A stretch of 27,174 nt of DNA from a virus. The stretch's first letter is position 1. Each line of letters opens with the position of its first letter. The DNA is taken from the IMG/VR virus record IMGVR_UViG_3300027714_000097, positions 1-27,174 of that record. One strand, written 5' to 3'. The translations under genes were made by a program, and so were the position numbers. Below the pieces are notes generated by a model, which was not told the DNA's origin, did no database searches, and worked only from the letters and a program-made list of their open reading frames with translations. Below are positions 1-17,604 of this stretch, one piece after another.

Positions 1-358
1 TCATATTAATTTTGTATCTATTTTCTTCCTTATATCGTTTATTAAACTTATAACTTATAGGTGACACATCATGATCAATCTCAAAATTTTCAATCCACTC
101 ACACTCTGGAAATGTGTCGAACATAAGAGGCACAATATACTGAGCAAACCAACCAGCAAGTAGAGCTACTCTTTTCGGTTGAACATCTAATTTCTCTAAT
201 GTCTCTACCAACCAGAGTTTACTTTCTAATTGAGAGGCGTTCATAGAATCTAGAACCCTTCTAGTCATATAATGATAATTTCCAGCATTCAACTCACTGG
301 AAGCTAACATTGCATTCTTCCAATCATTTGCCAGTTCTGGTGTAAATTGTAAATTCAC
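1..358 (-). CDS. Partial protein with methyltransferase-like segment (runs off left edge)
   Basis: The frame is open from about 388 to the window edge. I prefer the GTG at 358 as start because GGAGG lies eight bases before it; an in-frame ATG at 388, overlapping the end of the glycosyltransferase gene, has a weaker site. About 119 codons are visible. They read NLQFTPELANDWKNAMLASS at the start, then a helical part, then VALLAGWFAQYIVPLMF and ENFEIDHDVSPIS. A hydrophobic strand ending in a Gly-containing loop, then a helix, then a strand ending in Asp/Glu-rich EIDHD is the arrangement of motifs I and II in class I SAM-dependent methyltransferases. The conserved Gly pattern is only partly met and the rest of the gene is missing, so this is tentative. 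The neighbours fit a modification enzyme. Confidence 0.5.
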   Translation of the reverse strand, partial: MNLQFTPELANDWKNAMLASSELNAGNYHYMTRRVLDSMNASQLESKLWLVETLEKLDVQPKRVALLAGWFAQYIVPLMFDTFPECEWIENFEIDHDVSPISYKFNKRYKEENRYKINM

Positions 359-381
359 GTTTTGGCCCTCCGATACTATTT

Positions 382-1224
382 TTACCATAATGATTTCAAC
401 TCTTCAACATCGTTAGTATCTGCACTATTATTAAATAAACAAATCCTATGATCTGGTCTTAATTTTTTTTGTTCCATATCTGAGGGAAAAATGTTGCCTG
501 TGTAATATGAATAAATATCTCCTTTTGGAAATACATTAAAGAAACTTTCATCTGTCCGACCACTATCTTCATAACACATATTATACCAAAAGTGATTGAG
601 ATAATTATCAATGGTAGGATATGTAAAAAATAAAACGTCTAAGTTCTTAGCAATGTGCTTGTATATCTCTGTGAGTTGACCCCTATTCCATCGAATGACA
701 GATGAATTTATAGGAGTTGATTGCATCGCTGCATAATTCTTTCGACACTCATTCATGTTATTCCACCAACCTCTAACGATCCACGGTTTACCGTGTACAG
801 CTGTAACTTTAGTCTCTGCTGTCCATGATTGTTTCATATCAAGATCAAAGAAATATTTTAAGTCTTGATGGATGATAACGTCAAGGTCAAGATAGAGAAA
901 ATTATCTCCCTGTATAGATTTGAAATCTCTTTCTGATTCATCCCAGCCACCTGTAGCCGTGTAATAATCAAGTTGGAACATGTAGAGTTTTCTGTATGCC
1001 CACATGTTTGAAGGAGCCTGTTGATTACGAAATCTACTATGCAAACCTTCGTACTCATCCCAAGCTGTAGGAAGCAAAATATCATAATCTTTTTCTTTTT
1101 TGTCAGTGAGACAGTAAAAGTTGAAAGGGACTGAACAGTTATCTTCACACTGTTGTTTCAATTTCTCTACATATTCTCGGCTGTACTTGTCGCCCCACTT
1201 AACGCATAATATTGTGTTATTCAT
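382..1224 (-). CDS. putative GT-A-type glycosyltransferase (280 aa)
   Basis: The 280-residue product opens with a beta strand typical of phage and bacterial glycosyltransferases (MNNTILCVKWGDKYSREYVE). A VPFNFYCLTD strand follows, and then a metal-binding DxD motif in FLYLDLDVIIHQDL (Asp113, Asp115). This arrangement resembles GT8/GT32-like GT-A enzymes, which use UDP- or GDP-sugars with a divalent cation. Downstream are a Trp-rich region (KPWIVRGWWNNMNECRKNY), INSSVIRWNRGQL (possible acceptor loop) and a C-terminal RPDHRICLFNN with a candidate His. It has no membrane segment. GGAGAG lies four bases before the ATG. The gene follows the SGNH pair and precedes a methyltransferase-like gene, consistent with a sugar assembly cassette. 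Donor and acceptor are unknown. Confidence 0.75.
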   Translation of the reverse strand: MNNTILCVKWGDKYSREYVEKLKQQCEDNCSVPFNFYCLTDKKEKDYDILLPTAWDEYEGLHSRFRNQQAPSNMWAYRKLYMFQLDYYTATGGWDESERDFKSIQGDNFLYLDLDVIIHQDLKYFFDLDMKQSWTAETKVTAVHGKPWIVRGWWNNMNECRKNYAAMQSTPINSSVIRWNRGQLTEIYKHIAKNLDVLFFTYPTIDNYLNHFWYNMCYEDSGRTDESFFNVFPKGDIYSYYTGNIFPSDMEQKKLRPDHRICLFNNSADTNDVEELKSLW

Positions 1225-1897
1225 AAATCTCTCCGTGTCTTTTATATATAATGTTACTCATAACTTCATGCCCATCTTGGTTTGGGTGACCGCTTTCAGG
1301 ATTATCAACAATCTCATAAAAATGAAATCCACCGATATGTTTGAAAAACGGCCAGCCAATAATGTTTGGCCTATCTAAATCCATAAATGGTTTGTATTGT
1401 AACATCAACTTTGCTATTTCAATAGAAACAATTGGCATACAATTCATTATACTAGATAATTGTAAATAAGGTAAGTTTTTATCTCGACAAAAACTAGACA
1501 AGGACAACATATTTCTAATACCTTTTTCAATCATATATCTTGGGTATTTACGAGATTGGGTTACATTCCCAGCAGTTTTTAAATTTGCTTTCACATCCAT
1601 CATATCGTAATCACCAAAGGGGCATTCTGGAACTGGAATATCAATAAACATTTCTGCCGCTTCAGTTGATATTGTCCTATCAAATCCAGACCATGCAGAT
1701 ACGACTAAACCTATATTTTTGCTTTCATATATCGTGTCAATGGTTATGTCATGAATATACTGATTACTTGCGCCGCCCCTGCCAAGATTAATAAAATCCA
1801 TATCTAATTTTTCTGCAAGAAGTTCTGGCCAAAATTTTAGGTGTTGATCTTTATTCCATGTAAAACTACAACCAGATGCAATTAGTAATTTTCTCAT
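1217..1897 (-). CDS. SGNH-hydrolase-like protein, paralogue 2 (226 aa)
   Basis: I chose the ATG at 1897, seven bases after AAGGA, rather than the GTG one codon earlier. The motif set matches the 266-aa neighbour: ASGCSFTW (Ser11), FWPELLAEKLDMDFINLGRG followed by GASNQY, NIGLVVSAWSGFDR, GWPFFKHIGGFHF, and a C-terminal SGHPNQDGH. At the catalytic Asp-x-His position this copy has Ser202-Gly-His204, so the usual Asp is missing. It may use the preceding Glu201, depend on a Ser-His dyad, or be inactive. An 81-base gap separates it from the other paralogue, the longest intergenic stretch in the window. Its stop overlaps the next gene's start by eight bases. The function is probably related to that of its paralogue, perhaps on a different acyl group. 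Confidence 0.72.
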   Translation of the reverse strand: MRKLLIASGCSFTWNKDQHLKFWPELLAEKLDMDFINLGRGGASNQYIHDITIDTIYESKNIGLVVSAWSGFDRTISTEAAEMFIDIPVPECPFGDYDMMDVKANLKTAGNVTQSRKYPRYMIEKGIRNMLSLSSFCRDKNLPYLQLSSIMNCMPIVSIEIAKLMLQYKPFMDLDRPNIIGWPFFKHIGGFHFYEIVDNPESGHPNQDGHEVMSNIIYKRHGEIYE

Positions 1898-1978
1898 CAC
1901 TCATCCTTCTCGTATATGAAGTTATGGGGTGCAGGCGACTTTCTTCTCATGATCACAGTTGACCAGAAAAGTCTCAAC

Positions 1979-2779
1979 CTAAGAATAATTCTTTTTATAA
2001 CCATCTAACAATATCTCCATAATATATTCATGACCCATTTCGTTTGGATGGGTATCTTTTTTAGTTATTCTCATATTATTTCTTGATGGGTCTTTTTGAT
2101 CCATCAGATAATCCCAACACCAACCGCCAATATGTTCTGATATAGGCCAACCAAGAAATGTTGTATCTTCAATCAAAGAGAGGTACGGACTATTTATAAT
2201 CTCCTTACCAAACCTCTGCATGTCTGTAGTCGCATCTCCATCAGCACTTGGATAACAAGATTGAAATTGTAAATAAGGAACTTTCAAAGATTGACACAAT
2301 GTCTGTAGGTTGTAAATATACCTAAGTGTTTTCTGTGTCCCTGCCTTTACATCCATTAACTTATGATGCCAAAACAATTCAGATATTTTATAAGCTTTAT
2401 TTTTTTTAAAAACCTCTTTGTTATCTTTTCTGTTTTCAATATCATCCATCTTTCTTGCAGGCTTGAAACTTTCCCACTGATGTTGATACTGTAAATTTCT
2501 TGCATTAAAAATTTCAGCAAAGAAACTAACTCTATCAACCTCTGACCAACCAACAACTACCAATCCAATATTTTTTGTATTGACTATTTCATCAGTTACC
2601 TTGCTCCATATTGCTTCATTACCATCTCCACAGTTGCCAAGATTTACTAACTCCATGTCAAGTTTATCAGCAAGAAGTTCAGCCCAGATAGGAAATTGTT
2701 TTATATGAATTTTCATTGCATAGTTGTCAGTGTAACTGCAACCAGCAACTATAAGTTTTTTCTTAGAAAATAGCGACAT
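1979..2779 (-). CDS. SGNH-hydrolase-like protein, paralogue 1 (266 aa)
   Basis: SGNH/GDSL enzymes are esterases or acyltransferases acting on acyl groups of sugars, lipids and polysaccharides. Visible blocks are the nucleophile motif VAGCSYTD (Ser15), NLGNCGDGNEAI (residues 46-57, supplying the oxyanion Gly and Asn), a VVVGWSEVDR segment, and the C-terminal DTHPNEMGH with Asp242 and His244. The last has the spacing seen in DTHW-type acyltransferases and in several phage SGNH proteins. No signal peptide is present, so it probably acts in the cytoplasm of the infected cell or within the virion. The gene begins inside the end of the carbamoyltransferase gene (17-base overlap). It is paralogous to the next gene (shared GCS[YF]T, LLA[DE]KLDM, NIGLVV and GWP---HIGG). 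Acetylesterase versus acetyltransferase activity cannot be decided. Confidence 0.75.
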   Translation of the reverse strand: MSLFSKKKLIVAGCSYTDNYAMKIHIKQFPIWAELLADKLDMELVNLGNCGDGNEAIWSKVTDEIVNTKNIGLVVVGWSEVDRVSFFAEIFNARNLQYQHQWESFKPARKMDDIENRKDNKEVFKKNKAYKISELFWHHKLMDVKAGTQKTLRYIYNLQTLCQSLKVPYLQFQSCYPSADGDATTDMQRFGKEIINSPYLSLIEDTTFLGWPISEHIGGWCWDYLMDQKDPSRNNMRITKKDTHPNEMGHEYIMEILLDGYKKNYS

Positions 2780-4127
2780 TATATAATTTTGAAAACTCCT
2801 TAGCGTCTTCCCAAGTATTTACCATTGGTTTACCCTTTATATTTAGGGAGGTGTTCAGAAGCATTGGACAACCTGTTCGTTCATACCACTCTTCCAGAAC
2901 TTGTCTTATTAAGGACGAACAATCTTTCTTGACCACCTGTACTCTTGCAGTGCCGTCAACATGTGTAACAGAACTGTAATCATGCTTTGCTTTTGCGACA
3001 AACTGCATATACTCATTCATTGGACCTTCAAAATATTCCTCTGCATACTCCTCTAGGATTGCAGGAGCAAAGGGACGGAACTTCTGTCGTTTCTTAATAT
3101 CGTTCACAGTATCCTTGATGTCATATCGTGGATCACCAAGGAGTGAACGATTACCCAGTGATCGTGGGCCAAACTCTGCTCTACCAGTTGCAAAACCACA
3201 CACTTTATTATCCAACAATTCTTGCACAACGTTGCTGATATTAACTGGATTTAAAATTGGAGTTCCAAGGTATGGACCTTCCCATTCTAATTTTTGTTTT
3301 CTTACCAATGCAGCTGCACCTAATGCACTTCCCGCATCACCCGGCGCAGGCATTATCCAAATATTCTTACCTTTAATTTTTGAGTTTGCAACACAGTTCA
3401 AAGCACACCCACCCATTATAACCAAGTTTTCATGTGGACACATCTCTACCAATTTAAGAAGTTCTCTCTCGTACAGGTCTTGTACGGACGCTGCGAGGTC
3501 TTCTGAACGTGCTTTTGGTAAAATGTCCATGCAACCTTTATGATTGTTTTCTAACATCTGATATTCTAAATTATGTATCGGCTCACCAAATGCAGCCATA
3601 CCCATTGTGATATATTCATCTTCATTAGGTTTTAGACCAATACGTTGTGTGATTGCAGAATAGAGAAGTCCCAAAGAATATGGATACTTCCAAGATTTTA
3701 TCTTTTTGAGTGTGTGGGTTTTCTGCCCCATATATCCATTTTCTACAGAACCCTTCCATATAGAAATAGTGTCCCACTCACCGATTGCATCTATAACTAG
3801 AACGTTACACTCATCAAATGGGGCAGTGTAGTAACCAGCAGCAGCGTGAGATTCATGATGACCAAAAGACACATCAAAGTTGGTGGTGATTTTTTTCCAC
3901 CCCTGACCAGAATACAATCTTCTTAAATTTTTACGAAAGGGTTTTTCGTAATATGCAATTACATCAGGTTTGTATTTTTCTGTTTTGGGAAGTTGGTCAG
4001 AATGAATCCACTTATCATTCTTAACCCCACTAAACCTTTCGGCTTGAGAGGCAAATATTATTCTGTTGTTTCTTAAAACGCATACTGCTGCGTCATGAAA
4101 CCCTTCTGATATTCCTAATATATTCAT
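2763..4127 (-). CDS. NodU/CmcH/TobZ-family carbamoyltransferase
   Basis: The family transfers a carbamoyl group from carbamoyl phosphate, through carbamoyl-adenylate, to hydroxyls of sugars or other small molecules. Signature segments appear in order: ILGISEGFHDAA (residues 3-14), QAERFSGVKND (28-38), the metal-site HHESHA (90-95), VIDAIGEWDT (111-120), GGCALNC (239-245), PAPGDAGSALG (260-270), GPRSLGNRS (320-328), RPFAPAI (351-357) and NTSLN (425-429). Both the Kae1-like and the YrdC-like halves are thus represented. At 454 aa it is shorter than typical members (about 550-600 aa), mostly through compact linkers. The start overlaps the stop of the 148-aa gene by four bases, and the end overlaps the next gene by 17. 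The substrate is unknown; neighbours suggest a glycan. Confidence 0.92.
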   Translation of the reverse strand: MNILGISEGFHDAAVCVLRNNRIIFASQAERFSGVKNDKWIHSDQLPKTEKYKPDVIAYYEKPFRKNLRRLYSGQGWKKITTNFDVSFGHHESHAAAGYYTAPFDECNVLVIDAIGEWDTISIWKGSVENGYMGQKTHTLKKIKSWKYPYSLGLLYSAITQRIGLKPNEDEYITMGMAAFGEPIHNLEYQMLENNHKGCMDILPKARSEDLAASVQDLYERELLKLVEMCPHENLVIMGGCALNCVANSKIKGKNIWIMPAPGDAGSALGAAALVRKQKLEWEGPYLGTPILNPVNISNVVQELLDNKVCGFATGRAEFGPRSLGNRSLLGDPRYDIKDTVNDIKKRQKFRPFAPAILEEYAEEYFEGPMNEYMQFVAKAKHDYSSVTHVDGTARVQVVKKDCSSLIRQVLEEWYERTGCPMLLNTSLNIKGKPMVNTWEDAKEFSKLYNVAIF

Positions 4128-4570
4128 CCATAATAATCCACAATATATCTAAATATTTTCTTGGCTATATATTCTTTTTTATTCCACCGAAATTCAACAA
4201 GAGACATAGTTACTTTTTGCAATTTTAGATCATTTCTAACTGGACAAGGTAAGGCGACAAAAGACACTTTAAGTTCGTTATCATGTATTGTAAACCATAT
4301 CTCATCTTTTATAAAATTAATATTACTTATACTAATACAATAACATGTTGAAGTTTTTTTGTCAAGTCTACATTTCACATTTTGTTTTATATATTTATTG
4401 TGTTCTGGTATAATTATATCATACACAGATTCATTAACAGAATACCAAGTTGGGTTTTTGTAAAATGGATGCCACAAATCTAAGTGATGAATATCAATGA
4501 TACTGGTTTCTTTAGGCCGTTTTATTAAAAAAGATTTGTCAAAGTAAGTTCTCTCAGCCAAAAAATTCAT
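4124..4570 (-). CDS. uncharacterised protein preceding the carbamoyltransferase (148 aa)
   Basis: The 148-residue product has AAGGA eight bases before its ATG. It contains many aromatic and Lys/Ile residues (for example HHLDLWHPFYKNPTWYSVNE near residues 28-47) and Cys at about 87, 97 and 99 in a beta-rich core, and it ends with a basic helix (EYIAKKIFRYIVDYYG). I recognise no family. Base composition is more AT-rich than in the structural genes, as in the other accessory genes. Its stop overlaps the carbamoyltransferase start (ATGA), so the two are co-translated and may act together. Confidence 0.55.
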   Translation of the reverse strand: MNFLAERTYFDKSFLIKRPKETSIIDIHHLDLWHPFYKNPTWYSVNESVYDIIIPEHNKYIKQNVKCRLDKKTSTCYCISISNINFIKDEIWFTIHDNELKVSFVALPCPVRNDLKLQKVTMSLVEFRWNKKEYIAKKIFRYIVDYYG

Positions 4571-4577
4571 AATATAA

Positions 4578-4598
4578 ATCCTTTTTTAAAAGAAGGAT
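4578..4598 (-). promoter_or_regulatory. Hairpin overlapping a stop codon and the next ribosome binding site
   Basis: On the minus strand ATCCTT (4598-4593) pairs with AAGGAT (4583-4578), with a T/A-rich middle that can extend the pairing. The hairpin includes the TAA of the 198-aa gene and the AAGGA that should serve the 148-aa gene's ATG at 4570. Ribosomes finishing the upstream gene would open it, so it could couple translation. Alternatively it could be a weak attenuator at the end of the structural block. No U-tract typical of an intrinsic terminator follows. Confidence 0.4.
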
Positions 4599-5182
4599 GC
4601 GTATGCTTTAATAGCCTCCACAGGAGTTGTTGCCTTACGAATTTCAGTTTTGGCTTTTCTCTTCTTGCTGTTTTTAACAGCATCCTGTTCAAACATTTTT
4701 AATTTCATCTTAAATAAAACTTCTTTGTGTTCAGCTTTATCCAAATCAAAATCAAAAACAATATTCAAACTACCTTGACTTTCATCTTGGCTTTGACCAG
4801 CATCCAAACCATGACCGTACATGTTGTTCTGTGTGGCATAACGATGAAACGCATCTCTGAACTCTTGTCTTGTATTTTCATTTTTGTTTCGAGTACATTC
4901 ATCAATTGCCTCATATGAGAACTCTTCCAACAATGCAGCAAGTCTAACGTCATTGTCAACAACACTAATATTATAAATGGTTGCTTCCATTTCGCCACCA
5001 TTGGGTGTTACCCCATCAGCCTTAGTATGGAAACCATCATTTGGAACTTCATAGTTGTGTACAACACAAATGTTGTCTAGTGCAGCGCTGGTATAGTATG
5101 CTTCAATAATTCTACCTGTAAATGGAAACTTTGGTTCCCCATCTGCAAAATATGCCGCACTCTCTTTTCCTGTAAATGCCAT
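4586..5182 (-). CDS. uncharacterised protein at the end of the structural block (198 aa)
   Basis: Two purine-rich stretches (AGGAGG and AGGAGA) precede the ATG. The product is 198 residues, mixed alpha/beta and soluble. It begins MAFTGKESAAYFADGEPKFP with a FTGRIIEAYYTSAALDNICVVHNYE region. The middle is acidic and helical (LLEEFSYEAIDECTRNKNEN, then TRQEFRDAFHRYATQNNMYGHG). A Ser/Gln/Asp-rich hinge follows near residues 128-137, and a basic C-terminal tail holds KNSKKRKAKTEIRKAT. I do not recognise it. Its place directly after fibre-like genes suggests a virion or assembly role. It ends inside a small hairpin that also contains the ribosome binding site of the next gene, marking the boundary between structural and enzyme-coding genes. 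Confidence 0.6.
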   Translation of the reverse strand: MAFTGKESAAYFADGEPKFPFTGRIIEAYYTSAALDNICVVHNYEVPNDGFHTKADGVTPNGGEMEATIYNISVVDNDVRLAALLEEFSYEAIDECTRNKNENTRQEFRDAFHRYATQNNMYGHGLDAGQSQDESQGSLNIVFDFDLDKAEHKEVLFKMKLKMFEQDAVKNSKKRKAKTEIRKATTPVEAIKAYASFF

Positions 5183-5202: not shown

Positions 5203-6156
5203 TTAGGAACGGTGTGCCCGTAAATTATATAGAGCTATATTTTGAGCTGTACCATTCGGAAATTCTTGTGACCGATAATCATCAATGTTAACCTGTAACT
5301 GAGCATACTGACCAGAACCATCAAGCTTAGTGTTTGTCATTGTTGACCCACGAACACCACCATTGCCACTTGTTCCAACATTATAAGATATTTTGTGGCT
5401 GGAACTAGTAGAAGCAGTTTTTCTTAACCAGTTTCCTAATATAGTTCCTAAAGCACTTATAGAAAATTCTCTAAGATTATTATTTGAATCTATAAATAGT
5501 GGAGCTCTAGATGGAGTAACATCTACACCATCTCTTCTATGAAGAAAATAACTAGTTATTGTTGTTGGTTGATCAAGTGTTTCTGGAATACCAGCAGCAG
5601 AATATGCACCTGTGTTTGCTCGTGTATCAATAAATACGGCAGTAGATGAGACTTGTGTATAGTTTGTAGCAGCAGTAGCCGAAGTCGTGATAGTATACGT
5701 TCCACCAGTATCAGCTGATTCAGTTCCGTTGACCAAACTAATAATTGCTGGATGTAAAAAAGTATCTAGTACATCAGTCAACGTCATTGCTTTAATAGAA
5801 TTAGAATTATTATCAAAATGTACAGGAAATGTTGTTCCAGTGTCATCGGTTTCACCTACACCACTTGTAACATATGCAAGATTAATTTTATCAAATGCAA
5901 CTGTTACTGTGGTAGGTTCTGCTGTTCCAGATGCATACACGAATGCAGATGCAGATTGTGACGCCGCACCAGCCGCTGTTCTTGTATCTGCCATACCGTC
6001 TATAAGAGCACCACTACTAGAAACTTGTGTTAGAACAGCAGTAGGACTTGAAGCATATACAAAAATAGCTTTCTGTCTCCACTGATTAATCTCACCAGCT
6101 GTCATACGAGTTAAGGCACCAGAGCCATTATAATATAAAGGTTCTACGGATGCCAT
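5203..6156 (-). CDS. putative virion structural protein (317 aa)
   Basis: The ATG overlaps the stop of the 712-aa gene (TAATG). The protein is rich in Ala, Thr, Ser and Gly and has no transmembrane segment or enzymatic motif. It opens MASVEPLYYNGSGALTRMTA, then GEINQWRQKAIFVYASSP. Two similar FVYAS-type segments follow (residues about 32-36 and 72-76), with SGALIDGMADTRTAAG and later VFIDTRANTGAYSAAG, suggesting a weak internal repeat. The C-terminus (SQEFPNGTAQNIALYNLRAHRS) is tidy. I do not recognise a named family. Context among fibre-like genes and composition suggest a virion protein, possibly a short fibre or neck/whisker component. The downstream gene starts 21 bases on, after an AGGAGG site. 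Confidence 0.6.
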   Translation of the reverse strand: MASVEPLYYNGSGALTRMTAGEINQWRQKAIFVYASSPTAVLTQVSSSGALIDGMADTRTAAGAASQSASAFVYASGTAEPTTVTVAFDKINLAYVTSGVGETDDTGTTFPVHFDNNSNSIKAMTLTDVLDTFLHPAIISLVNGTESADTGGTYTITTSATAATNYTQVSSTAVFIDTRANTGAYSAAGIPETLDQPTTITSYFLHRRDGVDVTPSRAPLFIDSNNNLREFSISALGTILGNWLRKTASTSSSHKISYNVGTSGNGGVRGSTMTNTKLDGSGQYAQLQVNIDDYRSQEFPNGTAQNIALYNLRAHRS

Positions 6157-8522: not shown

Positions 8523-9755
8523 TTATGTTGCCAATGCCATTGCCCTAAAGTCTTTAATTCTAGGAGGTTCAGCAGAATTAGTTGATTGCATAACAATTTT
8601 AATTGAGAACGAAATGAATGGGTCTAATGAAATTCCAAGACCATCATCAGTAACACCAGCGGTAAATAGATACTCTTGGAAATCATCTCTACCTAGTGAT
8701 GGATTTGTAGTAGTGTCAGGAAGACCAGTATCGTTGAAGTATCTCCAACCCAACTCATCAAAATCACTCGCATCATCTGATCTTAAAATTTTATACATTA
8801 CTTTAATTTCAGAATCAGTGTCTCTATTTCCTGAGAAGAATACTTTAAGAGCTGTTGCTGATTGAGCAAGTGAAGCCTTTCTTGTTATATAGATTGCAAC
8901 GTTGTTGTCTCCATCTGGTTCAGTTGAATCAACATATTCAGATGTAGGATAAACATCAGCTGATGAATCAACGTTATTAATTCTATTTGATACAGCAAAT
9001 CCTGACATTCTTGCTGTATCAATAACAGGAGAAATATTATTATTATTAGTGTTCAAAGTACAAGTAAGAGTTAACGATTTATTACCAGCAAGTTCATTTG
9101 TCTCATTTATTTGAGATGCAATCATATATGGAATATCATAATACACATTCTCATTCAAAGGCACAGACTCTGCATCTGAAAGTGTTGTCTTAATAAATGA
9201 TGTTTGACTTCCAGCTGGACTTGTAGCAGTTGTTCCCTGTTTTACAGCCCTTATAGATGTACCTGTTAGCTGCATGTTTGATACATTAAATTGTGCAAGA
9301 TCGTACAACATATTTTCTGTCGCATAAACTTCAGAACCACCATTTTGAGCCCGTGTTGTTCCTGTTCCATCGATGTATGCTTCAGTTGTTGTTGTAAACG
9401 TATAACTGTCAATTCCAATATTAGCAATAGCAGTTTGTGTTTCATTTGCACCTGCTTCAGAAGAAAATTCAGAATAATGATTAAGTTCTGTAAATGGAAT
9501 TTTGTGTAACTGATACAATTCAACTGGAGCACCGGCAGGATGATAAATTCCACTTCCTACGTGGTTTGTGCCAAAGGCTCGACTAGCACCACTAATTGTA
9601 TTACCACTAATTGATGAATATTGAATTGGTTCATTTTGTATTTTTATAAGCCAATTGTTATTCGCATCCCTAGAATATTTACCAGTGGTATCATTAAAAT
9701 TTGTACCATCAGCCAAGACAATAGTTGTGTCTGTTCTATCAATCGCAGTGGCCAA
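8523..9755 (-). CDS. DUF4815-like baseplate/fibre protein, C-terminal fragment (frame-broken)
   Basis: The 410-codon frame has only a TTG as its nominal start, inside the 98-bp duplication, with no ribosome binding site. It is best read as the C-terminal part of the large gene. Once one 98-bp copy is removed it is continuous with the central fragment. The sequence has NEPIQYSSISGNTISGASRA near its N-terminus and a conserved-looking C-terminus (DIPYMIASQINETNEL, then RYFNDTG, then DDFQEYLFTAGVTDDG, then FSIKIVMQSTNSAEPPRIKDFRAMA) typical of the final beta domain in this family. Its stop is followed after one base by the ATG of the 75-aa gene (TAAAATG). Confidence 0.82.
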   Translation of the reverse strand: MATAIDRTDTTIVLADGTNFNDTTGKYSRDANNNWLIKIQNEPIQYSSISGNTISGASRAFGTNHVGSGIYHPAGAPVELYQLHKIPFTELNHYSEFSSEAGANETQTAIANIGIDSYTFTTTTEAYIDGTGTTRAQNGGSEVYATENMLYDLAQFNVSNMQLTGTSIRAVKQGTTATSPAGSQTSFIKTTLSDAESVPLNENVYYDIPYMIASQINETNELAGNKSLTLTCTLNTNNNNISPVIDTARMSGFAVSNRINNVDSSADVYPTSEYVDSTEPDGDNNVAIYITRKASLAQSATALKVFFSGNRDTDSEIKVMYKILRSDDASDFDELGWRYFNDTGLPDTTTNPSLGRDDFQEYLFTAGVTDDGLGISLDPFISFSIKIVMQSTNSAEPPRIKDFRAMALAT

Positions 9756-12700
9756 GGTAGTGCATCCCTAGAATATTTACCAGTGGTATCATTAAAATTT
9801 GTACCATCAGCCAAGACAATAGTTGTGTCTGTTCTATTAATCGCAGTGGCCAAGGTAGTCGTTGCACCAGATTTGATATCAAAAAATCTAACGTTATTAT
9901 TGATTGTATTCATACCATGATTAGGATGCAAAACTTGAACAACCTTACTACCATCTTGGAATATCAAAGGATTTGTTTGAAGTTTAACAGCAGACTCAGC
10001 TCCACCCTTTTGTTCACCAAATCCTTGAGCAGGCGCAGTACCAAGAATAGTTCTGTCACCGCCTGGATTACCCATATCCCAATATCCTCTATCAGGAATT
10101 GGAAGTTGATCATTAACAAGAGGAACAACGCCGTCTAAATTTTTCAAAAATTCCGCTCTATATATTCTAAACTTAATATCTTCTGTAAGAGAAGGTGACC
10201 AAGTTCTATTATTATGTCCCTTAAACATAACACCAATTTCTGGTTGTTCTGAAACTGTTCTTTCTGCAAACAAAGCATTAGAACCAGAACTTGCAGTTCC
10301 ACCTACTCCAGAAGCTGCCAGAGTAGATTGAATTTCAGTTTCGCCCATTCTTGCAATCCAGATTTTATGTGTCGGTACGTCAGCAAGAACACAAAAACAA
10401 TATTCCAAAGAGGATTGTAAATAAACAGGCGAAGCAAATTTAAAGTTTGTAGCTTTCTGACCAGTTTCGTCAAGGATAAGTTCAGAACCAGATCGAATAG
10501 CCCTGCCAAAAGGCATAACTTTTGGGCCAGGATAACCATTTATAACATTTCTAATTTCTACAGTAACAGGAAATGTTTCATCTTTATCTCCAAAGAAAAG
10601 ATCAATACTAGTAATAAAAGCACCGCCATCATTTTGTACTAAGAAAGTTTGTGCAAGAGGATCACCATCACCCGAATCGCCGCCATCACCGTCATCGCCA
10701 TCATCTCCATCATCTCCGCCATCTCCACTTGCCGGCGCAGGATTTCTACTACCAACCGTAGATGTAGAAACATTATTAGAGAAAATTGATGTATCTTCGT
10801 TTGTTCTTGTTCTTTTTATTTCTGCATTTCTAGTTGCAATTATTGTTTCTTGTTCAGTCTCTAAAATGCCAGTAGCATAGTATATTGCTTCACCAGCTGT
10901 AATAGGATCAATAGATGTTATGTTTGTAGGACTTGCTGTAAGTCTAAATTGAAGTTCACCAGTTTTAAATTGAGGATTACCCGAAACTTTAGGATCAGGG
11001 AGATTAAATGTTCCCTTAATTCTACCTGCTGCACTTGTTATAAGTGCATCACCAAATATTAAACTAGAATCAGATGTAGAAAATCCTTCTTGTGGTTTAG
11101 TAAAAGCAGCAACATCCTGTCTATCAAAGAAAGGATAAACCTGTGTATTTGGTAAAAAACGGTTGCCTTCAAAGTTAATTATTTTTGGCCGGCAGAAAGG
11201 CAATAATGCCCGGGCAATAACTTTAGTTCCCTGAGATTCGTAATCAATTTTTTCAACAATATCAGTTTGAACTCCCTGTCTAGTCTGATCAGTACGAACT
11301 GTTTGTGTTGTTCGTTGAACTAAACTATTACCAGACCACCACTGAGAACTTGATGATTGTGTAGTGCCAGTCCATTGAGTTTGCCAGGCGTTCCATACAG
11401 TTCCAATCGCATCCTTATTTGATTCAAAGAATGTATCAAAGTTTCCTTCTTGATTAATAATTAGATCAGGGGCAATTTCTGTTTCAAACCAATCATCACT
11501 AAATGGATCAAGAGCGATATTGCCTGCCCAATGAGAAACAAGGACAGGAGTAACTCTCTCAAGTCTAGTTGCATATGGCTGTTCAACTTGAACAACTTCA
11601 CTATATGGTAGAGTTATAAGATCACCTGTTTTCTGATAACCATGTCCAGCACGTTCTGCATCAGTTGTTGATTCTTCTATTAGATTAAAAGCTTTTGTCT
11701 TAGAAGCTGGGCGCAACTCATTTGCTTCCATATCAATAGAACACTTATAATCTTGATGTTTAACATCTCCAAGACGATGACCTTGAAAAGCATCAACAAC
11801 AAATCCAGACTTAAATCTATTAAGTCCATTTGCATCAGTAATTTCAAAACTCTCAGCATCCCTTTCTAACAAAGACAGGTGAGTGTAATACTCTAAGTTC
11901 TGAATACGATCTTGAAGTTTACCAATGTCTCTCATTGTAAAACGTTGGTTCTTTTCTCTTCGTATAACAACATCCGTTGGTTTAAAGGTAAATGGTGGGA
12001 TATATAATTCTGCAAGCTTCATTGTCGAACTTCTTAGTTCTGGTATTGCTGGATTTTCTGAAGAATCTCCTTCAGTTACAGTTAATTTTCCACCAAATTC
12101 TAGATCAATTACTGCTCTTTTTCCAATATAATATTCATAATCAGCTTGAACTAGAGAACCTGGCTTGAGGAAATTATTTGGAGATGAACCTGTACCATCA
12201 TATTGACGATGGAAAAAATCAAATGAATAACCAGTAATAGCATCAGTATTTTCTATAGTTGAACTTGCTCCGGTAGCATCCTCAACACAAGGTCTGAAAT
12301 CAAACACATTGTATAACGGATAATTGCCCGTAGGAGCAGGAGCATCAGGATCAACCTTAGTTGCAGTATATGTTGGAATATCAATGTAATCCATTTGATT
12401 AGCAATATCAGTATATGAATCAACAGTAAGAACATCACCAGCACTATGTTCAAGGTAATCAAAAACAATCAACAGCCTGCCTGTCGGTGCAGGCAGTCCA
12501 GACTTTCTCTGAATACGAGAGATATCATAATAGTTATCTCGTTGTCCAGTATCAAGTTGGTAATTAGTTGATATAACTGAATCGCCTTGTGTTGTAGCAC
12601 TAACCGTTCCAGTTGTAGCAGAAGATTCAGCAAGAATTGTTTCATTAACAGAAAATTGTTTTGATGTTCCAGAGGTATATACAATCTGAAGTGGAGTTGT

Positions 12701-14989
12701 TGTGGTAATAATTCTTGCGGTAGCCTTACTAGATGCACCAGTGATCTTTTCGCCCCTAATCAATGTACCCGTAACCTCTCCAAGACTTACTGTCGGAGCA
12801 ATTGCATCAGCATCAGAAGCACCAGATTCAAATACTGCCATAAGTCTAAACGCATCTGCTCGACCCAAGGAAATTTGTTTATCCGTTGGGCGTGTTCCAA
12901 ATGCAGCTGTTGCGCCAGGGACAACTTTTATCTGTTTCATCAATTTAGTTGTTTTGGTTTTTTGAACAACTGAAGTTTTAGAAATGGTTGTCATAATTTT
13001 TAGTTTAGCACCTGTACCAAACTGAGCAGCATTTCCAATGGAAACAGTTCCTGTTCCACCACCAGAAAATCCTGTGGAGGCACTAACAATGTCACCAGCT
13101 TTAGCAGCACCTGATCCAGCAGTTAGAACTGAAATTGTAAAATCGGTTTCACTATGAGAAAGGAAAATTTCATTTGCACCAGCAGATAGTGTTACTACAC
13201 CAGAAGAGTTTGTTGTAACAACAAACTGCCGGCGAATTGTAAACTGTGTATCACTTTCACCATTATTTGTAGCAGTCAACAAAGTTTTAACTGGACGTTT
13301 TGCAATATTAAATAGTGAAATATTCTTTTCTGAATCTTGTAACTTACAAATAAATCTGAATGAACCTGTACCACCAGTTGCAGCTGTCTGTAACGAAATT
13401 GGATCAGATTCTTCTTCTGTTAGAATATTATCTCCGTTATTAGTGAAGATATTATCTGTTCCATCCAAATCTAAGAATGAGGAAGCAGTTGTTACTGCAC
13501 TAAGAGCAATGTCAGCCGTGAAGTCTTGTCCAGCATCTGCATCCTCACAAACTACCGACCTAGTTTGTTCAAAACCTTTGCTAAATACACTAAGAACAGT
13601 TAAGTCAGCATTACTAGAGTTTTCTATAATACCACCAGCTTCAGCTGAGTCAGATGAAACGAGAGTCTCTCCGACTTGGAAATTTCCTAGAACATTTGTA
13701 AGAGCAAGTGAAGCGCCTGTAGTTTCTTCACCAAATACAAAACCAGTAGCACCACTAGAACTACCTGTAATTTTATTACCACCATTTGATGCAACAGAAG
13801 TTAAAGTAGGACTTGGTGTTGCTGATAATGTTATTAAAGTAAAGGGACGAATATCAAAAAGAAAGAGTTTGTAGATAGCATCAGGTTGTCCAGCAGTACC
13901 ACTATTATGTTGATAAGTTCTAACTCTTGCAACACCAATTTTAGTACCAACAGCTGATCCAGGCGTAACAATTGCTGTATCGTATAAAGATAACTGTTTG
14001 AAGGGAGTTGATTCACCAGAAACAAAAGATACGTCTGGTGTACCAAACATGTTTGTTACTGTAACAAAGTTACCAACATCAAATGCAGTACTACTTGCAT
14101 TTACTGTTGAAAACTGTCTTGATTTAGCTAAATCAATTACAGTTGGTGAAATTTTTTCAATTTCAAAACCTTTAACATAAGCTTTACCAGAAGAAATTTG
14201 TAGAGCAAGTAAACTTTCATTAGCAACGTTACCACTATCCGTAAGTGTTCCGTTGGGATATACACCTTTATAATTTACTGGGCCAACACTAGAATCCACA
14301 GATTCTTTAATTTGAAATGTAAAAGGTCTAACTGTATAATTACCAGATTCATCAAATGTTCTTCTTGCAAGAGTTTCTTCTAAAACAGAATATTCTGTAG
14401 CTCTTGCAAATTTTATAATATTGCCTCTTTTAACTCTAATCAACTCAATGAAATTTTTATCATCTGTTGAAGCAACAGTAAGATTGGTTAAAGTCAAAGT
14501 AAATTTTAATCGATGAGCACCCTTTGCAGCAAAGTTAGATGATCCTGATGCATTATCCAACAACGAAGAATCCGCTTCAGGCGTTATAATTGATTCATCT
14601 ATTTTCAAACCAATTCTGGCTTCATCATTGTATGCGTTATATTTGTTAATAATAATTGTTTGATCTAAAACTTGGGCAAAATGACCTCTAACAAAATACA
14701 CACCAGCAGAAATGGATGCAATAGAACACTTGCCAGCAACAGGGCCTGTAGTACCTGTTGCTAATTCTTTTGACTTAATTGTTGTTTCAGAAGCTTCAGT
14801 TGTCAAAGAAGCCACATTAGCAGCAAATGTTGTTGATCCATGAGTAACTGAAACGGATGCACTAAGATTTTCGTTAATCACAAACTTATGAAAACCAGAA
14901 GCATCCAAAGCACTTATTCGAGATGCTTTATCTTTTTGCCTGGTGGGGAAACCTCCAACAGGAATAGCAGTAGGATTTGCTCCCTTCAA
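9644..14989 (-). CDS. DUF4815-like baseplate/fibre protein, central fragment (frame-broken)
   Basis: This is an open frame of 1781 codons whose nominal start is a TTG with no ribosome binding site. The coding sense continues upstream in the same frame (TTTDPVTLYGQFISSNLKG) to the 14-bp duplication. Family landmarks are visible: a WNAWQTQWTG segment, the LLPFCRPKIINFEG-RFLPNTQVYPFFD region, and after an Asp/Gly linker the DPLAQTFLVQNDGGAFITSI domain with the VINGYPGPKVMPFGRAI loop. These occur in the large DUF4815-type proteins of marine T4-like phages, which probably occupy the gp9/gp10 side of the baseplate. Several ITG-SS-AT-type hairpins lie in the first half. The last 35 or so residues (after YSRDA, from LPWPLRL on) are read from the second copy of a 98-bp duplication and are not genuine. 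Confidence 0.82.
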   Translation of the reverse strand: MKGANPTAIPVGGFPTRQKDKASRISALDASGFHKFVINENLSASVSVTHGSTTFAANVASLTTEASETTIKSKELATGTTGPVAGKCSIASISAGVYFVRGHFAQVLDQTIIINKYNAYNDEARIGLKIDESIITPEADSSLLDNASGSSNFAAKGAHRLKFTLTLTNLTVASTDDKNFIELIRVKRGNIIKFARATEYSVLEETLARRTFDESGNYTVRPFTFQIKESVDSSVGPVNYKGVYPNGTLTDSGNVANESLLALQISSGKAYVKGFEIEKISPTVIDLAKSRQFSTVNASSTAFDVGNFVTVTNMFGTPDVSFVSGESTPFKQLSLYDTAIVTPGSAVGTKIGVARVRTYQHNSGTAGQPDAIYKLFLFDIRPFTLITLSATPSPTLTSVASNGGNKITGSSSGATGFVFGEETTGASLALTNVLGNFQVGETLVSSDSAEAGGIIENSSNADLTVLSVFSKGFEQTRSVVCEDADAGQDFTADIALSAVTTASSFLDLDGTDNIFTNNGDNILTEEESDPISLQTAATGGTGSFRFICKLQDSEKNISLFNIAKRPVKTLLTATNNGESDTQFTIRRQFVVTTNSSGVVTLSAGANEIFLSHSETDFTISVLTAGSGAAKAGDIVSASTGFSGGGTGTVSIGNAAQFGTGAKLKIMTTISKTSVVQKTKTTKLMKQIKVVPGATAAFGTRPTDKQISLGRADAFRLMAVFESGASDADAIAPTVSLGEVTGTLIRGEKITGASSKATARIITTTTPLQIVYTSGTSKQFSVNETILAESSATTGTVSATTQGDSVISTNYQLDTGQRDNYYDISRIQRKSGLPAPTGRLLIVFDYLEHSAGDVLTVDSYTDIANQMDYIDIPTYTATKVDPDAPAPTGNYPLYNVFDFRPCVEDATGASSTIENTDAITGYSFDFFHRQYDGTGSSPNNFLKPGSLVQADYEYYIGKRAVIDLEFGGKLTVTEGDSSENPAIPELRSSTMKLAELYIPPFTFKPTDVVIRREKNQRFTMRDIGKLQDRIQNLEYYTHLSLLERDAESFEITDANGLNRFKSGFVVDAFQGHRLGDVKHQDYKCSIDMEANELRPASKTKAFNLIEESTTDAERAGHGYQKTGDLITLPYSEVVQVEQPYATRLERVTPVLVSHWAGNIALDPFSDDWFETEIAPDLIINQEGNFDTFFESNKDAIGTVWNAWQTQWTGTTQSSSSQWWSGNSLVQRTTQTVRTDQTRQGVQTDIVEKIDYESQGTKVIARALLPFCRPKIINFEGNRFLPNTQVYPFFDRQDVAAFTKPQEGFSTSDSSLIFGDALITSAAGRIKGTFNLPDPKVSGNPQFKTGELQFRLTASPTNITSIDPITAGEAIYYATGILETEQETIIATRNAEIKRTRTNEDTSIFSNNVSTSTVGSRNPAPASGDGGDDGDDGDDGDGGDSGDGDPLAQTFLVQNDGGAFITSIDLFFGDKDETFPVTVEIRNVINGYPGPKVMPFGRAIRSGSELILDETGQKATNFKFASPVYLQSSLEYCFCVLADVPTHKIWIARMGETEIQSTLAASGVGGTASSGSNALFAERTVSEQPEIGVMFKGHNNRTWSPSLTEDIKFRIYRAEFLKNLDGVVPLVNDQLPIPDRGYWDMGNPGGDRTILGTAPAQGFGEQKGGAESAVKLQTNPLIFQDGSKVVQVLHPNHGMNTINNNVRFFDIKSGATTTLATAINRTDTTIVLADGTNFNDTTGKYSRDALPWPLRLIEQTQLLSWLMVQILMIPLVNILGMRITIGL
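9664..9859 (-). repeat. 98-bp tandem duplication (one mismatch) that breaks the DUF4815-like gene
   Basis: Bases 9664-9761 and 9762-9859 are adjoining copies of the same 98-base unit. They differ only at 9740 (c) versus 9838 (t), which changes Asp to Asn in the encoded ATAI[D/N]RTDTT segment. The length is 3n+2, so the second copy puts the downstream part out of frame. Removing one copy makes the central fragment read on as YSRDANNNWLIKIQNEPIQY into the 410-aa frame. The single difference suggests either some divergence since duplication or the merging of two strain variants during assembly. Confidence 0.95.
10662..10735 (-). other. Asp/Gly low-complexity linker in the DUF4815-like protein
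   Basis: About 24 codons encode almost only Gly and Asp (GDGGDDGDDGDDGDG and so on), between a Ser/Thr/Asn-rich stretch and the DPLAQTF domain. It separates two conserved domains. It may be a flexible hinge or bind divalent cations; neither is shown by the sequence alone. Confidence 0.75.
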
Positions 14990-17596: not shown

Positions 17597-17604
17597 TATT
17601 TATA
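17597..17604 (-). promoter_or_regulatory. T4-type late promoter box TATAAATA upstream of the 211-aa gene
   Basis: An exact TATAAATA on the minus strand sits in the 33-base gap after the 1744-aa gene. It is 20 bases before the ATG at 17576, with an AAGAGGGAA ribosome binding region between them. It probably starts a late transcript covering the 211-aa gene, gp8 and the genes beyond. The sequence match is direct; activity is inferred. Confidence 0.72.

Follow-up and report, generated by a model that had tools for sequence, protein, structure and literature searches.

Pelagimyophages carry a hypervariable island, the host recognition cluster (HRC), which lies in the structural region between the VrlC gene and the neck genes (Zaragoza-Solas et al. 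2020, PMC7029224; what is said of this article here refers to the parts of it that were consulted). Carbamoyltransferases have been reported from T4-like cyanophages (Sullivan et al. 2010, PMC3037559), and the phage-type MetaGPA 5-hydroxymethylcytosine (5hmC) carbamoyltransferase is active with carbamoyl phosphate and ATP (PMC8670742). Here, we analysed the IMG/VR virus record IMGVR_UViG_3300027714_000097, whose 27174 bases are referred to as the window (L001, L002, etc. designate related loci). At its left end, behind the gene of a fibre-region protein (FIB; FIB317 in the window), lie genes for a carbamoyltransferase (CT), two SGNH proteins (S1 and S2), a glycosyltransferase (GT) and a methyltransferase (MT), which a preliminary description of this DNA had taken for one unit. 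Comparison with related loci reveals two modules instead: module A is GT-MT, usually with an Asp/Asn-hydroxylase-like gene, fixed behind FIB317 and a further gene, U198, while module B is CT-SGNH, with one or more SGNH copies, an optional and mobile insert between U198 and GT.

Two gene modules behind the fibre region

The minus strand of the window carries a T4-type baseplate run (gp5-like, PAAR, gp25, gp6, and other baseplate wedge and VrlC-like genes), followed by fibre-region genes and then, from position 4127 to the left window edge, by the five enzyme genes. The gp6 protein is closest to those of Methylophilales phage Melnitz and Pelagibacter phage Mosig (48% each), and the virus is therefore pelagimyophage-like; the window belongs to a T4-like marine phage related to the pelagimyophages. 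The open reading frames (ORFs) of the region are as follows:

5203..6156, minus strand: FIB317, fibre-region protein, part of the conserved upstream frame
4586..5182, minus strand: U198, protein without assigned function, constant neighbour between the fibre gene and the enzymes
4124..4570, minus strand: 148-aa ORF with no function assigned, seen only in the window and L001
2763..4127, minus strand: CT, predicted carbamoyltransferase, 454 aa (Pfam, PHROG and PDB profiles, tree)
1979..2779, minus strand: S1, SGNH-fold protein, predicted soluble, 266 aa (AlphaFold, Foldseek, motif audit)
1897..2004, minus strand: small 35-aa ORF (MVIKRIILRLRLFWSTVIMRRKSPAPHNFIYEKDE) that overlaps both the S1 end and the S2 start (same ORF in relatives)
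1217..1900, minus strand: S2, second, optional SGNH protein, 227 aa (alignment to S1, gene orders)
382..1224, minus strand: GT, putative GT8-like glycosyltransferase, 280 aa (sub-cut-off PF01501, PHROG 1962, DxD)
2..388, minus strand: MT, class I S-adenosylmethionine (SAM)-methyltransferase-like, cut by the window edge (129 of ~235 aa; fold of relatives)

The five enzyme ORFs are indeed co-directional and mostly overlapping, as the preliminary description had it, in the order CT, S1, S2, GT, MT, with overlaps of 17 nt (CT/S1), 8 nt (S2/GT) and 7 nt (GT/MT) and a gap of 78 nt between S1 and S2. It had also placed them right after the fibre genes; the link to these genes stands, while direct adjacency does not, U198 (5182-4586) and the 148-aa ORF intervening before CT. 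The check that it proposed, for conserved order elsewhere, was run: the order of the enzyme genes is repeated in the contigs of many other phages, and it is therefore not a matter of chance.

Related loci were gathered by two scans, one from CT and one from MT, and the frame counts refer to the MT-ascertained loci. U198 comes next after FIB in 53 of 61 loci, and MT after GT in 66 of 70; in 50 of 75, the gene behind MT is Asp/Asn-hydroxylase-like (PF05118). The gene directly after U198 is GT in 39 of 64 loci, its start then lying a median of 3 nt past U198, and CT in 17 of 64. Where U198 and GT occur in order (n = 60), nothing recognised separates them in 41 cases, and CT with at least one SGNH gene stands between them in 17. 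Once identical MT proteins are removed, 53 distinct GT-MT loci remain, of which 18 carry the CT insertion; this distribution requires 7-11 gains or losses on the GT+MT tree. Other loci have CT-SGNH but no fibre, GT or MT gene. It is because of these insertion counts and these separate loci that we regard GT-MT as constant and CT-SGNH as optional and mobile, and the five genes as a single unit are rejected. Relatives with the genes scattered independently of one another had been named as evidence against such a unit, and half of this pattern is seen: CT-SGNH moves apart and GT-MT stays fixed.

The cassette outlined in the preliminary description is also part of something longer. In relatives, the island continues past MT with hydroxylase-like, radical-SAM, further GT and other genes up to the neck genes gp13/gp14, and this region has already been described as the hypervariable HRC (PMC7029224). 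VrlC-like genes lie upstream in the window, and gp13/gp14 are reached in the relatives, the window itself ending earlier; the region is an HRC-type island between VrlC and the neck genes, and an accessory island is therefore expected here. Within the island, L010 (18488-20871), L012 and L032 encode proteins in tandem that share an SGGxDS PP-loop motif; by eye they resemble asparagine synthetases, and the member tested gave no Pfam match. A 420-520-aa protein with no Pfam match (cluster c10; L018 15665-16966 and relatives) stands behind the hydroxylase-like gene in many loci.

On the fibre side, Pfam and PHROG searches gave no convincing family match for FIB317; a hypothetical protein encoded by Pelagibacter phage Mosig shares 49% identity with it, and a U198 homologue is present in the same phage. 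The Mosig locus (L081, 51400-76098) contains SGNH, DegT/ArnB-like, radical SAM, CT, MT and GT8-like genes, and Mosig, as a cultured phage, is usable as a model system. Further upstream in the window, a 98-nt tandem duplication (9664-9859; copies 99% identical, not in L001) splits the VrlC-like frame into ORFs 9644-14989 and 8523-9755, and appears to be either a recent event or an artefact of assembly. The window gave no Rfam match and no tRNA.

The CT-SGNH pair in phages and bacteria

For phages, the pair was counted in 40 CTs of the window CT clade that share less than 90% identity and have room downstream. An SGNH gene lies directly after CT in 33 of these 40 and within 1.5 kb in 37, and 18 of the 33 adjacencies are in loci without a fibre gene in reach. 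In the genome collection, 15 of 27 CTs of the window clade have a same-strand SGNH gene within 1.5 kb; of the CTs outside the clade, 1 of 55 does (Fisher p 2e-8, which is indicative, related loci being counted as independent); a few of the carriers may be phage contigs in metagenome-assembled genomes (MAGs). Both gene orders occur in this collection, with SGNH upstream in some pairs and downstream in others. CT and SGNH genes travel together in phages and some bacteria. A survey of 395 genomes from the class to which one bacterial carrier belongs found no close CT except in the carrier itself, and the window CT clade is therefore rare in that class. In L026 (11395-14925), L080 (966-3690) and L140, CT is followed by three to four SGNH genes in a row; L140 has two CTs and four SGNH genes.

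The neighbours of the bacterial pairs include a polyketide synthase (PKS) with a TylF-type methyltransferase in Magnetococcales, a nonribosomal peptide synthetase (NRPS; A-T-thioesterase) module with an Asp hydroxylase in Antrihabitans, an aminotransferase, a 2-oxoglutarate (2OG) oxygenase and a carrier-protein domain in an Actinobacteria MAG, and transglutaminase-like, decarboxylase and nucleotide-sugar genes in Nonomuraea; the remaining bacterial carriers have no such biosynthetic neighbours among the genes tested. The presence of the pair in some bacterial biosynthetic clusters hints that phages and bacteria may have in common a chemistry that is so far undescribed for phages. Since PKS, NRPS or further biosynthetic genes adjoin some pairs, a protein, a peptide or a small molecule may be the acceptor in place of a sugar, and the modified glycan of the preliminary description becomes one reading of several.

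These PKS, NRPS, aminotransferase, decarboxylase, Asp-hydroxylase and transglutaminase-like neighbours would suit a pathway that makes or tailors, during infection, a diffusible compound or one resembling a ribosomally synthesized and post-translationally modified peptide (RiPP); its enzymes would be those of the wider island (radical SAM, 2OG hydroxylases, SGGxDS PP-loop proteins, CT, SGNH, MT). Precedents for it are crocagin (PMC10070186), whose CgnD is a Foldseek match of S1, and the Pantoea PNP-1 antibiotic (PMC4010436). However, the candidate precursor, the 35-aa ORF, is confined to the closest relatives, and a secreted compound would be of no obvious use to a lytic phage. We judge such a pathway improbable, if a close rival of the reading favoured below. 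The ORF itself is retained in L001, L002, L003 and L005, with only 2-6 synonymous versus 3-7 non-synonymous codon changes, and is a candidate coding frame that may give a real peptide.

The five predicted enzymes

CT matches PF16861 (4.3e-49, 167 bits), PF02543 (6.1e-40, 138 bits) and PHROG 1601, and both the Kae1-like N-terminal and the C-terminal domains of the O-carbamoyltransferase superfamily (TobZ/GdmN) were found in it; a full-length profile match links it to the novobiocin CT (E 1.6e-74), and others to GdmN and TobZ. The motifs HxxxH, GR.E.GPR.LG.RS, RPFAP, HVDG.AR.QVV and NTS.N are present, and H90, H94, R322, R327, D391, R395 and N425 are invariant among 27 CT sequences, in agreement with GdmN and the novobiocin CT. 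By family, CT is a full carbamoyltransferase, with transfer activity predicted. In the sequence tree, the window CT clade (54 tree rows, SH-aLRT 98) appears distinct from the Nol/TobZ-like enzymes; the 'Nol-like' CTs of S-SSM7, HTVC008M and Mosig fall outside it, their exact place being unsure on account of long branches.

Base-modification clusters contain glycosyltransferases and methyltransferases. CT might carbamoylate 5hmC in the manner of the MetaGPA enzyme, with GT and MT performing further base-modifying steps, and a phage-type 5hmC carbamoyltransferase is proven (PMC8670742). For this DNA-type CT, however, the MetaGPA authors report thymidylate synthase partners (PMC8670742), and the thymidylate synthase near some of the present CTs is ThyX-like; of 12 related records, a good number of which are fragments, only 2 have PF00303, neither being a CT-plus-fibre locus, and no dCMP-hydroxymethylase-type gene was found adjoining these CTs. 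DNA hypermodification via thymidylate-synthase partners is unsupported, and DNA as the substrate seems very improbable to us.

The AlphaFold model of S1 (predicted local distance difference test, pLDDT, 94) has the SGNH hydrolase fold, and Foldseek matches it in the PDB to TesA and GDSL esterases with a probability of 1.00, CgnD being matched as well; in Pfam, S1 has only sub-threshold matches, to DUF6071 and GDSL. It carries the motifs GCSYT, WSEVDR and DTHPN in this order. A search of S1 for a strongly hydrophobic segment found none, and a hydrophobicity check found no transmembrane-like segment in any of the five enzymes. In a motif audit of 101 SGNH sequences of the S1 family, the block I Ser was present in 99, the block II Gly in 97 and the block V His in 99, with an Asp two residues before this His in 95. 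The block III Asn is absent: in 100 of the 101 sequences its slot, placed by sequence and not by superposition, is occupied by Ser or Thr, and the Arg that follows it (WSxxR) is invariant in all 101. S2 aligns to S1 with 29% identity, the SGNH fold itself being modelled for S1; it starts with GTG at 1900 or, likelier, ATG at 1897, and is missing from the close relatives L002 and L005.

GT reaches 16.8 bits against PF01501, below the cut-off of 24.3, with 4 of 20 family members attaining E<=0.01. It matches the PHROG 1962 glycosyltransferase (0.0018), and D113 and D115 of its DxD metal site (YLDLDVIIHQDL) are invariant in 20 sequences, which weakly suggests a GT8-like glycosyltransferase. Its profile gave no match against the PDB and, in hhalign, no real match to the Mosig GT8-like protein; with the second GT of the island, the probability is 87%. 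For MT, neither the window copy nor the complete L003 relative has a Pfam match. The AlphaFold model of this relative (pLDDT 80) has 550 Foldseek matches in the PDB at E<=0.001, among them O-/C-methyltransferases (E about 1e-7, TMq about 0.5), so that MT is modelled as a class I SAM methyltransferase fold (Rossmann-like), with SAM binding and methyl transfer predicted. The enzyme types named in the preliminary description are thus borne out, CT by strong Pfam matches, S1 by fold, S2 by its identity to S1, GT weakly, and MT by the fold of the L003 relative; the edge-cut MT gene, which it had proposed to complete, is whole in L002, L003 and L005, the window copy staying cut.

Fibre decoration, the host surface and described systems

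We favour, with a probability of about 0.4, a late decoration of the neighbouring fibre protein in the cytoplasm, a reading in which gene architecture and family assignments are shown and target, timing and reaction order are all inferred. The predicted-soluble enzymes would act on a hydroxyl-bearing acceptor, their lateness being assumed from gene position. Hydroxyl groups would come from the hydroxylase-like enzyme, a sugar from GT and a methyl group from MT; CT would use carbamoyl phosphate and ATP to attach an O-carbamoyl group, and the role of the SGNH partner would be to transfer, trim or proofread the ester. As acceptor, the neighbouring fibre or receptor-binding protein is the likeliest candidate, and a swap of module B would alter the chemistry of the fibre tip. 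The fixed frame, the CT insertion counts, the CT-SGNH pairing, the gene overlaps, the soluble enzymes, the hydroxylase gene after MT and the activity of the MetaGPA enzyme are all counted in its support.

Several observations weigh against fibre decoration. CT-SGNH is also found beside replication genes (a DnaB-like helicase, another DNA helicase, SbcC/D-like), which does not suggest a fibre-only target, and in Mosig the related enzyme genes are on the strand opposite to the FIB and U198 homologues. Nearness to the fibre genes may mean no more than that the site is plastic, and the p value for the pairing is to be read as qualified above. The density of late promoters (TATAAATA) in the window does not exceed that of shuffled sequence, and that of sigma-70-like sites exceeds it only slightly. 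One perfect TATAAATA at 17597-17604 (minus strand), ~20 nt before ORF 17576-16941, is well placed for a T4-type late promoter. To these is added the published interpretation of the GT8 enzymes and other sugar genes of the HRC island as host lipopolysaccharide (LPS) modification (PMC7029224).

The corresponding view of the present cassette is that its enzymes alter LPS or another envelope glycan during infection, keeping competing phages out or letting progeny escape, with CT adding O-carbamoyl and SGNH adjusting O-acyl groups. Lipid A hydroxylases also fall within PF05118, UDP-glucose dehydrogenase lies near some CTs, and sugar genes adjoin the CTs of S-SSM7 and HTVC008M. GT is itself GT8-like, and the island is read as O-chain modification in the parts of PMC7029224 consulted. 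However, no membrane protein, flippase or lipid-carrier transferase is found among the window genes of the cassette, whose five enzymes look soluble; the cassette stands within the structural gene run and not with early genes, and the bacterial CT-SGNH homologues are in several cases beside PKS/NRPS-type genes. Modification of the host surface is a close rival of fibre decoration, if on balance unlikely.

A further reading we put forward tentatively and as a doubtful proposition: CT and the divergent SGNH protein (Ser/Thr for the block III Asn, invariant Arg) would constitute an undescribed two-enzyme module, common to marine phages and some bacterial biosynthetic clusters, whose two members would act on the same acceptor and which phages would insert beside fibre genes for O-carbamoyl-based decoration of fibre or peptide substrates. 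Neither the CT-SGNH pair in phages nor the constant fibre-U198-GT-MT frame was found described in the literature searched, with most subscription journals outside that search. If our account as a whole is right, the 'LPS-like' accessory gene list of abundant marine phages would become two testable modules, one of them tied to an enzyme pair that recurs in bacterial biosynthetic clusters. It would also offer a first handle on whether the HRC chemically modifies the virion or the host, which the pelagimyophage paper, in the parts consulted, answers by analogy only (PMC7029224).

Among described systems, the MetaGPA enzyme belongs to the same carbamoyltransferase superfamily and is thought to be phage-derived, but its substrate is DNA and its partner a thymidylate synthase homologue rather than SGNH, GT or MT (PMC8670742). 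The cyanophage CTs share the Pfam family, and that of S-SSM7 also sits between tail-fibre genes and gp13 (PMC3037559); the S-SSM7, HTVC008M and Mosig enzymes, however, are outside the window clade and have no SGNH gene directly adjoining. In crocagin, a carbamoyltransferase (CgnI), an SGNH-like hydrolase (CgnD), a 2OG dioxygenase (CgnC) and a methyltransferase (CgnL) serve one substrate, although this is a bacterial RiPP pathway in which CgnD removes the leader peptide, and CgnI serves as a precedent only (PMC10070186). The Pantoea PNP-1 cluster concerns a bacterial small-molecule antibiotic, with pnp1C between the two genes of interest and Pnp1D likewise a precedent only; it does bring together an SGNH gene (pnp1B) and a carbamoyltransferase gene (pnp1D), and mutations in either stop production or export (PMC4010436). 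As for the HRC, the words carbamoyl and methyltransferase are absent from the main text of PMC7029224, and the parts consulted describe neither the constant FIB-U198-GT-MT frame nor the mobile CT-SGNH pair. The likeness is nonetheless close, since fibres, GT8 glycosyltransferases and radical SAM genes belong to the HRC and the loci related to the window run likewise from fibre genes to gp13/gp14 (PMC7029224).

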